Positions 30,152 through 36,642 of a stretch of DNA of 36,642 bases are shown here, piece by piece. Origin of the DNA: Clostridiales bacterium DTU087. Lineage in GTDB: Bacteria > Bacillota > Limnochordia > DTU087. Every line of letters begins with the position of its first letter. Within the stretch, counting starts at the first letter, position 1. The notes beneath the pieces are model-generated. The model did not search any database, had not been told where the DNA came from, and saw only the letters and a program-made list of their open reading frames with translations. Location of the stretch: positions 1 through 36,642 of the forward strand of contig LFTN01000109.1 of assembly GCA_001513495.1 (NCBI GenBank), in the 5' to 3' direction. The translations under genes were made by a program, and so were the position numbers.

Positions 30152-30721
30152 ATGATGCACAGACATAGGAGATGGAATACTGCCGGACTAGGGACATTGA
30201 CAAAATCCCTGTGCTTCGCAGTGCTTCTTGCAGCGGTGGTGGTTCTAAACGCTGCAGGAGAGCCGGCAGCCGCCAGTGTGGGAAGTGCCGTTCCAAGGGT
30301 TGGCTATAGGGCCCCTGATATCACGGTCAAGACACTGACGGGCACTGAGGTCACCTTGGGGGAGCAGCTGGGTACTCCCATCTTCATCAACTTCTTTGCC
30401 ACTTGGTGCTATTTTTGCAGGGTGGAAATGCCGCATATTGAATCTCTGTATGAAGAGGTTGGCGACGAAGTCAATTTTATGATCGTCGACATTGGGGAAA
30501 GCAGGGAGACGGTTACTGCTTACTTTGAAGCAGAAGGATGGACGGTACCGGCATACCTGGATTCCACCGGAGCCGCAGGCAACCGCTATGCTGTCCGGGG
30601 GCTGCCGACATCATTTTTCATTGACAGTGACGGAGTCATTCGAGATATGGTGATTGGCGCAATGACCGAAGCGAGGCTGCGGCAGGGGATTGAGTCTATC
30701 CTGTCGGCAGGTTCAGATTAA
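30152..30721 (+). CDS. TlpA/ResA-like thioredoxin-family redoxin, secreted or membrane-anchored
   Basis: N-terminal hydrophobic segment; FINFFATWCYFCRVEMPHIESLYEEV with CxxC; cis-Pro region GLPTSFFID. Confidence 0.88.
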   Translation: MMHRHRRWNTAGLGTLTKSLCFAVLLAAVVVLNAAGEPAAASVGSAVPRVGYRAPDITVKTLTGTEVTLGEQLGTPIFINFFATWCYFCRVEMPHIESLYEEVGDEVNFMIVDIGESRETVTAYFEAEGWTVPAYLDSTGAAGNRYAVRGLPTSFFIDSDGVIRDMVIGAMTEARLRQGIESILSAGSD

Positions 30722-30796: not shown

Positions 30797-30830
30797 GCGA
30801 TTCGCCTCCTGCGGGGCGATCGCTTTTTTT
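30797..30830 (+). terminator. Intrinsic terminator after the TlpA-like gene
   Basis: GCGATTCGCC...GGCGATCGC stem (one bulge) followed by TTTTTTT. Confidence 0.75.
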
Positions 30831-30843
30831 GTGTCTTGTACCC

Positions 30844-30872
30844 TTGCACCGGATGGTTCGGTTTGGTAATAT
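30844..30872 (+). promoter_or_regulatory. Putative promoter for the HTH-unknown-AAR-like cluster
   Basis: TTGCAC (30844-30849), 17 nt, TAATAT (30867-30872); inverted repeat GCACA-aaac-TGTGC at 30881-30894 near the expected start site. Confidence 0.5.
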
Positions 30873-30947
30873 GGGACTGAGCACAAAACTGTGCACAATG
30901 CAGCGGCAGACCTACTGCCGCCGAAGGTGGTTGGTAGCGTGGGCCTG

Positions 30948-31466
30948 ATGCGGATTGGGGAGAAGCTTGTCAGTACCAGCCGAATTCATAGGGTGGTGGA
31001 CCAAATCCTAGAGCTGCGCTCCCAAGGGCAGTCTCAGCAGGAAGTTGCCGAACAGATCGGGGTTGACCGTACCTTTATTTCCAGAATGGAGGGCCTCGGG
31101 GAGGTTCGCAAAGGGGAGCGCATAGCGGTAATTGGCTTTCCCATCGGCAATAAGGAAGAGATTGAGGGTATTGCCCAGGAAGAAGGCGTGGATTTTGTAT
31201 GGGTGATGACTAATGAGGAACGCTGGCAATTTGCCGAGGATCGCAGCGGGGCCAAGCTGGCCAACGAATTGATGGTCCTCTTCTCTCGGCTGCGGGATTT
31301 TGATACCATCATCTTTCTCGGTTCCGATATGCGGATTAAGCTGGTGGAGGCCATGCTGGCCCCAGAGACTGTACTAGGTATCGAACTGGGAAAATCGCCA
31401 ATCCGTGAAGATAAGTATGTGGATCCGACAGAGTTTCGAGCCTTAATTCGCTCTTTGAGCACCTAA
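30948..31466 (+). CDS. HTH DNA-binding transcriptional regulator with a C-terminal alpha/beta putative effector domain
   Basis: HTH: VDQILELRSQGQSQQEVAEQIGVDRTFISRMEGLGEVRKG; then ERIAVIGFPIGNKEEIEGIAQEEGVDFVWVM... Track start is GTG 30891; MRIGEKLVS at 30948 judged more likely. Confidence 0.8.
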   Translation: MRIGEKLVSTSRIHRVVDQILELRSQGQSQQEVAEQIGVDRTFISRMEGLGEVRKGERIAVIGFPIGNKEEIEGIAQEEGVDFVWVMTNEERWQFAEDRSGAKLANELMVLFSRLRDFDTIIFLGSDMRIKLVEAMLAPETVLGIELGKSPIREDKYVDPTEFRALIRSLST

Positions 31467-31520
31467 AGGGCAGTCAGCCCTGTGTCTTGGAACAATTCTC
31501 TTTCCGATGGAGGCGCTACT

Positions 31521-32438
31521 GTGAAGCATGTAGTGAGTATCAGCATTGGTTCCTCTAAACGGGATCATCGAGCAGAGCTGGAGATCTTGGGTGAGAGGTT
31601 TCTCATTGAACGTATTGGTACCGATGGCGATATGGATAAGGCTGTGGAACTGATCCGCCAGCTGGACGGCAAAGTGGATGCTTTCGGCCTCGGCGGCATG
31701 GATATGTACATCTATGCGGGAAATCGTCGGTATACTATTCGGGACTCTAAGCGCTTTTCCTCGGCGGCGGAGCGAACCCCTTTGGTTGACGGCTCGGGGC
31801 TCAAAAACACCCTAGAGCGAAAGGTCGTAGATTTCCTGCAGGAAAAGATGCAGCTAGAGCTGAAGGGACGCCGTCTGCTGATGGTGGCTGCAGTGGATCG
31901 TTTTGGCATGGCAGAGGCCTTTGCCTTGGCTGGATGTGACATGGTGATTGGAGATCTGATGTTTGGGCTGGGGATACCAATCCCCTTGCACAATCTGAGA
32001 ACCCTTGCTGCGGTAGCCCGGGTTGCAGCTCCTGTTGCTGTGCGGCTTCCCTTTGAGGTACTGTATCCTACCGGCAGCAAGCAGGAGCAGTCCAAGGTCA
32101 AGTACTCCAGATACTACCACTGGGCAGATATCATTGCCGGGGACTACCTGTTTATCAGCAGGCATATGCCGGAGGATCTGCGAGGGAAGATAATTGTGAC
32201 CAATACCGTTACCGAGGATGATGTCACCGGATTGAGGCGCAGGGGTGTAGAGATGCTGATCACCTCGACACCGAATCTCTGTGGGCGTTCCTTTGGTACC
32301 AACGTGATGGAAGCGGTGCTGGTGGCATTGATGGGCAAGCGGCCGGAGGAGATCATGCCGGAGGATTATCTAGCCATGCTGGATGCCCTCAACTTCACTC
32401 CCCGAGTGGAGTACTTACAGGCCAGTACCCGTTGTTAA
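31521..32438 (+). CDS. Conserved protein of the type often auto-named 'quinate 5-dehydrogenase'; function unclear
   Basis: MKHVVSISIGSSKRDHRAELEILGERFLIERIGTDGD...VDAFGLGGMDMYIYAGNRRYTIRDS. GTG 31521 preceded by GGAGG. Family name recalled, not searched. Confidence 0.65.
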   Translation: MKHVVSISIGSSKRDHRAELEILGERFLIERIGTDGDMDKAVELIRQLDGKVDAFGLGGMDMYIYAGNRRYTIRDSKRFSSAAERTPLVDGSGLKNTLERKVVDFLQEKMQLELKGRRLLMVAAVDRFGMAEAFALAGCDMVIGDLMFGLGIPIPLHNLRTLAAVARVAAPVAVRLPFEVLYPTGSKQEQSKVKYSRYYHWADIIAGDYLFISRHMPEDLRGKIIVTNTVTEDDVTGLRRRGVEMLITSTPNLCGRSFGTNVMEAVLVALMGKRPEEIMPEDYLAMLDALNFTPRVEYLQASTRC

Positions 32439-32474
32439 AAAAGGTTCAATAGACAACCGATGAGGTGATATTTT

Positions 32475-33572
32475 TTGGAACGGTTCGCATTCATTATCCA
32501 CCCACTTGAGATTGAAGATGTTGCTCGCAAATTCCCTTCAGCCCAGCGGATGCCGGCGTCCTGGCTTGAGAGCCTGCTTAGGCATAGCCCGCCCATCAAG
32601 GCATCCCACATTAAAGGTGTCCGTTCCCTCCAGGGCACGGAGGCAGAGGGATGGTTCATCGGCTGTCTGTTGACCTCCAAGCAGATGATGGAGCTGCCGG
32701 AGCAAGATGTATTGGATAAGATCATCAAGTCGGCAAGAAAAGCGGAGCAGCTCGGTGCTGGGATTGTAGGCCTGGGCGCCTTTACGGCGGTGGTTGGCGA
32801 TGCAGGTGTGACGGTAGCTGAGAATGTCGGCATCGCAGTGACCACTGGCAACAGCTACACTGTCGCGACGGCTTTGGAAGGGATACGCTATGCCGCCGAT
32901 TTAATGGATGTTTCCATTGCTGATGCGTCGGTTACCGTCCTAGGTGCCACCGGCTCCATCGGTTCTGCATGTGCCCGGATACTGGCACGGGACGCGGGCA
33001 ACATGACAATGGCAGCCCGTTCCCTAGACAGGCTGGAAGAACTGGCGTCCAGGATTGAGGCAGAGGCCGGCTTGCGGCCTCAAGTGACCATTGACTTGGC
33101 TGCGGCTTGCCGCGGGGCAGACATAATTGTGGCTGTTACCAGCGCTACAGGCGCCGTGGTGGAGCCGGAATGGCTGAAGCCGGGAGCAATAATTTGTGAC
33201 GTTGCCAGGCCCCGGAATGTCTCCCGCCGGGTAGCAGATGTCCGCCAGGACGTATTAGTCTTTGAAGGCGGTGTAGTGGAGGTGCCGGGAGATGTCGACT
33301 TCGGTATGGATTTCGGCTTTCCGGCCAAGACCGCCTATGCCTGCATGGCTGAGACGATGATTCTAGCCCTTGAGGGCCGATACGAGAATTTTACATTGGG
33401 CCGGGATCTGTCAGTGGCACAGATAGATGAGATTAGCCGGTTGGCTGCCCGCAACGGCTTTCGGCTGGCTGGGCTCCGCAGCTTTGAGCGAGCTGTCAGC
33501 AGGGAGTGGATTCAGCGGGTCAAAGAAAATGCCGACAGGGCCAGCAGGGGGGTTGCCGCGAAAGGCATGTGA
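32475..33572 (+). CDS. Reductase resembling cyanobacterial long-chain acyl-ACP reductase (AAR) / shikimate dehydrogenase-like Rossmann protein (TTG start)
   Basis: AFIIHPLEIEDVARKF N-terminus, GLGAFTAVV, TTGNSYTVATA, VTVLGATGSIGSACARILA, ARSLDRLEEL, VFEGGVVEVPGDVDF, YACMAETMILALEGRYENFTLGRD. Similar in order to cyanobacterial AAR recalled from memory. Confidence 0.75.
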   Translation: MERFAFIIHPLEIEDVARKFPSAQRMPASWLESLLRHSPPIKASHIKGVRSLQGTEAEGWFIGCLLTSKQMMELPEQDVLDKIIKSARKAEQLGAGIVGLGAFTAVVGDAGVTVAENVGIAVTTGNSYTVATALEGIRYAADLMDVSIADASVTVLGATGSIGSACARILARDAGNMTMAARSLDRLEELASRIEAEAGLRPQVTIDLAAACRGADIIVAVTSATGAVVEPEWLKPGAIICDVARPRNVSRRVADVRQDVLVFEGGVVEVPGDVDFGMDFGFPAKTAYACMAETMILALEGRYENFTLGRDLSVAQIDEISRLAARNGFRLAGLRSFERAVSREWIQRVKENADRASRGVAAKGM

Positions 33573-33607: not shown

Positions 33608-33636
33608 TTGACATCACCTGGATCACTGGCTATAAT
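33608..33636 (+). promoter_or_regulatory. Consensus sigma-A promoter for greA-lysS
   Basis: TTGACA (33608-33613), exactly 17 nt, TATAAT (33631-33636). Confidence 0.8.

Positions 33637-36269: not shown

Positions 36270-36642
<373 letters not shown>

Follow-up and report, generated by a model that had tools for sequence, protein, structure and literature searches.

A three-gene unit between dusB and greA

In this computational analysis, the window (the whole stretch of DNA analyzed, 36,642 nucleotides) was found to carry three open reading frames on the same strand, here called HTH, MID, and AAR, with intergenic gaps of 54 and 36 bp. The features of the locus, in window positions, are as follows.

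30802..30832, + strand: intrinsic-terminator-like hairpin and T run (7-pair stem, loop of 4, T6 tail), which closes the upstream unit
30844..30872, + strand: promoter-like TTGCAC-N17-TAATAT, a sequence reading, with hexamers largely kept in four congeneric loci
30878..30897, no strand assigned: predicted tandem operator TGAGCACA-AAAC-TGTGCACA, two palindromic 8-mers with a 12-bp pitch
30939..31466, + strand: HTH, helix-turn-helix regulator with an alpha/beta C-terminal domain, 175 aa, GTG start kept in the genus alignment
31521..32438, + strand: MID, undescribed protein family, 305 aa, two-domain alpha/beta model (AlphaFold, AF2)
32475..33572, + strand: AAR, acyl-ACP/CoA reductase relative, 365 aa, TTG start, with C290, GATGSIG at 157-163, R182, R186, and R310
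33608..33636, + strand: consensus promoter TTGACA-N17-TATAAT upstream of greA, 12/12 matches, the 3' border of the unit

A first-pass annotation of this DNA had described close spacing on one strand (about 55 and 36 bp), a terminator upstream of HTH, a promoter-like TTGCAC-N17-TAATAT, and a separate greA promoter, and all of these were recovered: the hairpin proper spans 30802-30819 and is followed by the T run, the two hexamers lie at 30844-30849 and 30867-30872, and the greA promoter is a perfect match. The TTGCAC-N17-TAATAT element was too weak to be detected in a consensus promoter scan. The longest HTH reading frame begins at GTG 30891, a start that is unlikely because congeneric loci have stop codons in frame and because these bases belong to the conserved palindrome, which the frame would overlap. 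The real start is probably GTG 30939, preceded by a ribosome-binding site, AAGGTGG, at 30924-30930.

The layout supports the proposal that HTH, MID, and AAR are a single transcription unit, and on sequence criteria the three genes form a predicted operon that is kept across most of the phylum. The annotation had also taken the unit for an insertion into a housekeeping block that runs on to the rRNA genes (the small-subunit rRNA starts at 36270). This part failed, since the order dusB-HTH-MID-(AAR)-greA-lysS is conserved across many families; it is the usual order and was found in Thermincola, Thermoanaerobacteraceae, and Syntrophomonadaceae, and MID-AAR-greA-lysS with no detected HTH was found in Orenia, Halonatronum, Natroniella, rumen Negativicutes, and Coprothermobacter. 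Several of the relatives compared are draft metagenome bins. The dusB-HTH-MID-AAR-greA-lysS order is ancestral, and no insertion took place. Between dusB and the HTH unit, the window has a TlpA/ResA-type thioredoxin gene (30152-30721); among the loci read, a gene of this type at that position is confined to the window's genus and some other members of its family.

Co-occurrence of the three families

We surveyed 300 genomes drawn across the phylum and found MID in 225, the HTH profile in 179, and strong AAR (E below 1e-60, our own cut) in 154. MID was present in 154/154 strong-AAR genomes and in 178/179 HTH genomes, with a single HTH genome lacking it, so that the co-occurrence expected of a conserved triad was borne out; because the sampled genomes share ancestry, P values overstate the independence of such counts. 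AAR directly followed MID in 100 of the 112 genomes for which both coordinates were listed, with a median gap of about 40 bp. Some divergent AARs fell under the cut, such as the one with 31% identity beside MID in L106. In total, 71 of the 225 MID genomes had no strong AAR, and in 36 of these 71 no AAR-type protein was found, which means that MID must act without AAR too.

These AAR-less genomes, together with the dusB-greA-lysS synteny and four loci in which MID has moved next to genes for L,D-transpeptidase, GerM, or MurI, would fit an independent housekeeping role of MID tied to dusB-greA-lysS, with AAR and HTH as passengers in the transcription unit. However, AAR is strictly nested within MID genomes, MID-AAR fusions exist in other phyla far from dusB-greA, and in one genome (G261) the predicted operator described below stands directly before MID; we therefore hold a pure housekeeping role to be quite unlikely.

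Away from dusB-greA, MID has a second recurring site (L099, L100, L101, and L111), where its neighbors are genes for L,D-transpeptidase or peptidoglycan-binding proteins, GerM-like proteins, and glutamate racemase.

AAR is a relative of acyl-ACP reductases

AAR is, by its sequence, a relative of the acyl-ACP reductases that lies outside the TIGR04058 equivalog (116.6 bits versus a cut-off of 449.7 bits). Its best NCBIfam match was PigE (6.8e-65), it also matched the cyanobacterial acyl-ACP reductase, and PF01488 (Shikimate_DH) matched its Rossmann part. The catalytic Cys equivalent to SeAAR C294 is present as C290 in YACMAE and is nearly invariant in A3, and the dinucleotide loop GATGxIG is present as GATGSIG (157-163). 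The three Arg residues that bind the NADPH 2'-phosphate in SeAAR (R189, R193, and R314; PMC7089970) have counterparts in R182, R186, and R310 (phmmer alignment). The family matches and the conserved Cys, loop, and Arg residues support the acyl-thioester chemistry that had been suggested for the unit, at least for AAR, which is predicted to reduce acyl-ACP or acyl-CoA to aldehyde.

The cyanobacterial AARs (TIGR04058; COG5322; PDB 6JZQ/6JZU) share the fold, the catalytic Cys, the GATGxIG loop, and the three phosphate-binding Arg residues with the window AAR, whereas the latter scores under the equivalog cut-off, is partnered with MID, and belongs to a group found mostly in Firmicutes. The cyanobacterial partner is the oxygen-dependent ADO (aldehyde-deformylating oxygenase), for which no candidate was seen among the local open reading frames. 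The transaminase-AAR fusions PigE, TamH, and PpKTFusion (PMC10829540) have an AAR domain of the same superfamily. Class-III transaminase fusions to AAR domains also occur in Firmicutes, where they bear the operator found before HTH, and thermophilic fusions of this type have in vitro transaminase activity (PMC10829540). The window AAR differs from them in standing alone with MID and a regulator, with no transaminase fusion. A search of the literature for a link between acyl-ACP reductase and plasmalogens in Clostridium gave nothing relevant.

MID is an undescribed protein family

MID matched no family in Pfam or NCBIfam, dehydrogenase models included, no PDB sequence, profile search included, and nothing in plasmids. 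The name "quinate dehydrogenase" was dropped for want of profile support in Pfam, NCBIfam, and PDB, and the warning that automatic names may mislead here was justified. The literature on "quinate 5-dehydrogenase" yielded only an uncharacterized conserved Deinococcus family that bears this name (PMC9425974). Taken at its word, the name would make the unit a quinate/shikimate-type dehydrogenase with a carboxylated ring metabolite as its substrate, a reading that could call on the Deinococcus usage and on the PF01488 match to the Rossmann part of AAR. We find it barely credible, as MID itself has no match to such a family, AAR has the Cys and Arg set of acyl-ACP reductases, and the neighboring and coregulated genes encode acyl-thioester enzymes.

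The AF2 model of MID is confident (pLDDT 90, pTM 0.86), and Foldseek aligned it with two-domain alpha/beta dehydrogenases and sugar-binding proteins; the top listed TM-score, 0.49, was shared by AAR (6jzq_D) and a carmabin-pathway enzyme (9e4u). In profile-profile alignment, MID and AAR were collinear over 207-230 columns (P values of 0.033 and 0.0017; reversed control, P value = 0.11 over 26 columns), and a global profile alignment was unsuccessful; at a probability of 0.7-16 percent, homology between the two is no more than suggestive. MID has neither a Gly-rich dinucleotide loop nor the catalytic Cys, but it has its own set of many charged and nearly invariant residues. MID is probably, if not provably, a distant AAR-fold protein.

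HTH and a predicted tandem operator

The AF2 model of HTH (pLDDT 88) shows a helix-turn-helix at the N terminus and an alpha/beta domain at the C terminus. Foldseek of this model returned weak Rex-like matches only (best E value, 0.012), and none that was significant for the C-terminal domain. HTH did not reach the curated cut-offs for XRE/HTH_3 (18.6 versus 23 bits) or Tfx (14.2 versus 60.25 bits). The Tfx/EnfR DNA-binding proteins resemble it in a weak match to the helix-turn-helix region, and the HTH profile weakly matches the archaeal regulator structure 8hnp; it differs from them in scoring far under the curated cut-offs and in its C-terminal domain, which has no significant match.

Upstream of HTH genes, the 8-mer TGTGCACA occurred in 38 of 45 loci (0.37 expected). 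Among 32 diverse loci (HTH proteins <75% identical), the exact 8-mer was found in 26 and a second near-copy 11-13 bp away in 24, with exact 12-bp spacing in 21 site pairs (shuffles: mean 0.05, maximum 1). The tandem pattern TGTNNACANNNNTGTGCACA was present in 111 of the 300 phylum genomes, and the reversed-pattern control gave 0. Seventy-eight of the 132 tandem sites lay ahead of HTH by no more than 250 bp (median distance, 29 bp), the HTH position being unlisted for 24 further sites. With a relaxed pattern, the window's predicted operator was the only site in its genome, no second one being found, and each congeneric genome likewise had exactly one site, at HTH. No operator was found immediately upstream of MID or AAR where these follow HTH, as expected inside an operon.

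A conserved predicted operator thus lies between the promoter and the regulator gene, the arrangement of an autoregulated operon. The statistical evidence for the operator is strong; HTH would bind it and act as a repressor. The suggestion that the unit is regulated, with HTH as its regulator, is supported by this highly conserved site ahead of HTH, and the protein very probably regulates the unit. Control of lipid synthesis in Firmicutes is exerted by FapR-type regulators. HTH, read as an autoregulated local repressor with predicted operators also before fab genes in some genomes, is similar to them in this respect, but its operator differs, and its C-terminal domain is modeled as alpha/beta, whereas that of FapR-type regulators has a hot-dog fold. 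Among the titles found for TGTGCACA/TTGTGCACAA, none described the HTH regulator.

Predicted operator targets in other genomes

Operator sites away from HTH are nonrandom; the account below covers all of them but the two in G197 and G243. The operator precedes transaminase-AAR fusions in seven genomes (G163, G091, G177, G024, G016, G030, and G027), a transaminase-AAR gene pair in G130, a lone transaminase in G184, AAR alone in G200, MID alone in G261, and fabH-fabK-fabD operons in G153, G300, and G320. It also precedes serine-palmitoyltransferase/KBL-like (SPT/KBL-like) synthases, most of which have a zinc alcohol dehydrogenase gene behind them, and many of these loci belong to genomes with MID and without AAR (e.g., G104, G131, G141, G171, G192, G215, G220, G238, and G266). 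The G239 site falls within an unrelated gene, probably by chance. The targets that could be identified form or use up acyl thioesters, or transaminate the aldehyde. This is the strongest reason to place the operon in long-chain acyl metabolism and to assume more than one terminal enzyme served by MID.

The same data bear on a PigE-like specialized metabolism, in which AAR would reduce a polyketide or medium-chain thioester held by a carrier, with the aldehyde or amine serving as an alkaloid or pigment precursor and not becoming a lipid. Such a role would agree with PigE being the best NCBIfam match of AAR, with the class-III transaminase fusions under the same operator, and with a Pseudomonas transaminase-AAR fusion that lies within a type II FAS/PKS cluster (PMC10829540). 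It is difficult to square with the phylum-wide, single-copy, housekeeping-like conservation, with a locus that has no PKS or NRPS genes, and with the wax-ester genes that adjoin MID-AAR fusions and the fab operons under the operator. We consider this role unlikely.

The SPT/KBL-like synthase, in most cases with the dehydrogenase gene behind it, was seen under the tandem operator at L243:3812-6243 and 15 similar loci of genomes that have MID and lack AAR; sphingoid-base synthesis in Firmicutes from such loci is possible. Beside transaminase-AAR genes or MID, we also observed a small alignable protein family (FPG/YFPS..EAQ.A), with members at L233:965-1321, L264:5235-5654, and L111:4657-5127.

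MID-AAR fusions and wax-ester genes

A single open reading frame encodes both MID and AAR in Chloroflexota and sulfate-reducing Desulfobacterota, where there are about 18 distinct fusions. In a Desulfobacterales cluster (L174:3268-13953), two tandem MID-AAR fusions are accompanied by two genes for wax-ester synthases (WS/DGAT), a gene in which an iron alcohol dehydrogenase is joined to SCP2, and one for a PhaR/phasin-like protein; in a second sulfate reducer (L062), a WS/DGAT gene adjoins the fusion. It is thus at L174 and L062, and not in the window, that fusion and WS/DGAT are adjacent, and the sulfate-reducer clusters would encode the path from acyl thioester through aldehyde and alcohol to wax ester side by side. 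In the second AAR copy of L174 (L174:5654-7717), Gly replaces the catalytic Cys.

The fusion, the dehydrogenase-like fold of MID, and the wax-ester synthase neighbors might suggest that MID-AAR is one bifunctional acyl-to-alcohol reductase, AAR forming the aldehyde and MID the alcohol. MID, however, has no Gly-rich dinucleotide loop, the same cluster already has an iron alcohol dehydrogenase, and the aldehyde itself would be the substrate of the transaminase-AAR proteins that share the operator, all of which makes a bifunctional reductase very unlikely.

Nine Chloroflexota genomes were searched for WS/DGAT, which was found in only one fusion carrier, G368, and was absent from the Chloroflexus-type genomes tested; the wax synthase of the other Chloroflexota, if any, would therefore be of another type. 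An alpha/beta hydrolase gene follows the fusion in Chloroflexota genomes without WS/DGAT (L165:9925-10722, L168:4877-5656, L169:9084-9887, and L177:8978-9787) and could encode an unrelated wax synthase. The WS/DGAT search of the window's genome gave no match; control genomes were also silent, and sulfate reducers gave matches.

FarA, AcrB, and FcrA, the acyl-CoA reductases of wax-ester formers, occur in only 1, 31, and 26 percent of WS/DGAT-bearing bacteria (PMC11948995), so many of these bacteria appear to have no known acyl reductase. The MID-AAR fusion resembles them in its proposed supply of the alcohol precursor to WS/DGAT and differs in belonging to an unrelated reductase family and in needing a separate alcohol dehydrogenase.

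A proposed role in long-chain lipid metabolism

We think that the unit is probably an autoregulated lipid-metabolism operon that would make long-chain aldehydes from acyl thioesters, with MID as the partner of AAR. HTH would bind the two palindromic TGTGCACA-type sites, 12 bp apart and just downstream of the -10 hexamer, and so control the operon; we conjecture that HTH represses until an acyl or downstream metabolite releases it. AAR would load a long-chain acyl-ACP or acyl-CoA on Cys290, and reduction with NADPH would yield a fatty aldehyde, which in some lineages might become an amine (transaminase-AAR fusions, same operator) and in others an alcohol and then a wax ester (MID-AAR fusions with an alcohol dehydrogenase and wax-ester synthases as neighbors). 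In many lineages without AAR, the operator precedes an SPT-like enzyme and a reductase, which would act on a thioester of that type. MID would be the constant partner, most likely one that binds the acyl thioester or presents it to the terminal enzyme in a complex, which we infer as the weakest step of the scheme; a presenting or sensing of acyl-ACP/CoA by MID is our conjecture.

The lipid reading draws on the AAR residues, nested co-occurrence, adjacency, fusions, wax-ester clusters, operator statistics, and operator targets, together with the collinear MID/AAR profiles and the place of AAR among the top listed TM-scores to MID. Against it stand the 71/225 MID genomes without strong AAR (36 without any AAR-type protein found), the greater closeness of AAR to PigE, whose substrate is no plain long-chain acyl-ACP, the merely suggestive MID-AAR homology, and an AAR score far below the TIGR04058 cut-off. 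No downstream aldehyde-using gene was identified in the window's genome.

Put more broadly, and as a tentative proposal, MID might be a new acyl-thioester-handling family that is the obligatory partner of AAR, transaminase-AAR, and SPT-like synthases under one previously undescribed regulator and operator that extend over much of the Firmicutes, serving unrecognized aldehyde- or amine-derived long-chain lipids, with the MID-AAR fusion as the missing fatty acyl reductase of some wax-ester formers. The fusion would be a concrete candidate for WS/DGAT bacteria that have no known acyl reductase. The predicted operator offers a direct experimental handle, and the genomic context narrows the chemistry to acyl thioesters. 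Three quarters of the genomes sampled from this major bacterial phylum carry a family that has no Pfam model; if the Deinococcus annotation, matched here by its name string only, denotes the MID family, every Deinococcus genome covered by PMC9425974 has it too. The genes that come after MID in Anaerolineae-type genomes encode a MobA/CTP-transferase-like nucleotidyltransferase and a PAP2 phosphatase (L057:2335-4583, L059:8004-10247, L060:8004-10241, and L178:6848-9396).
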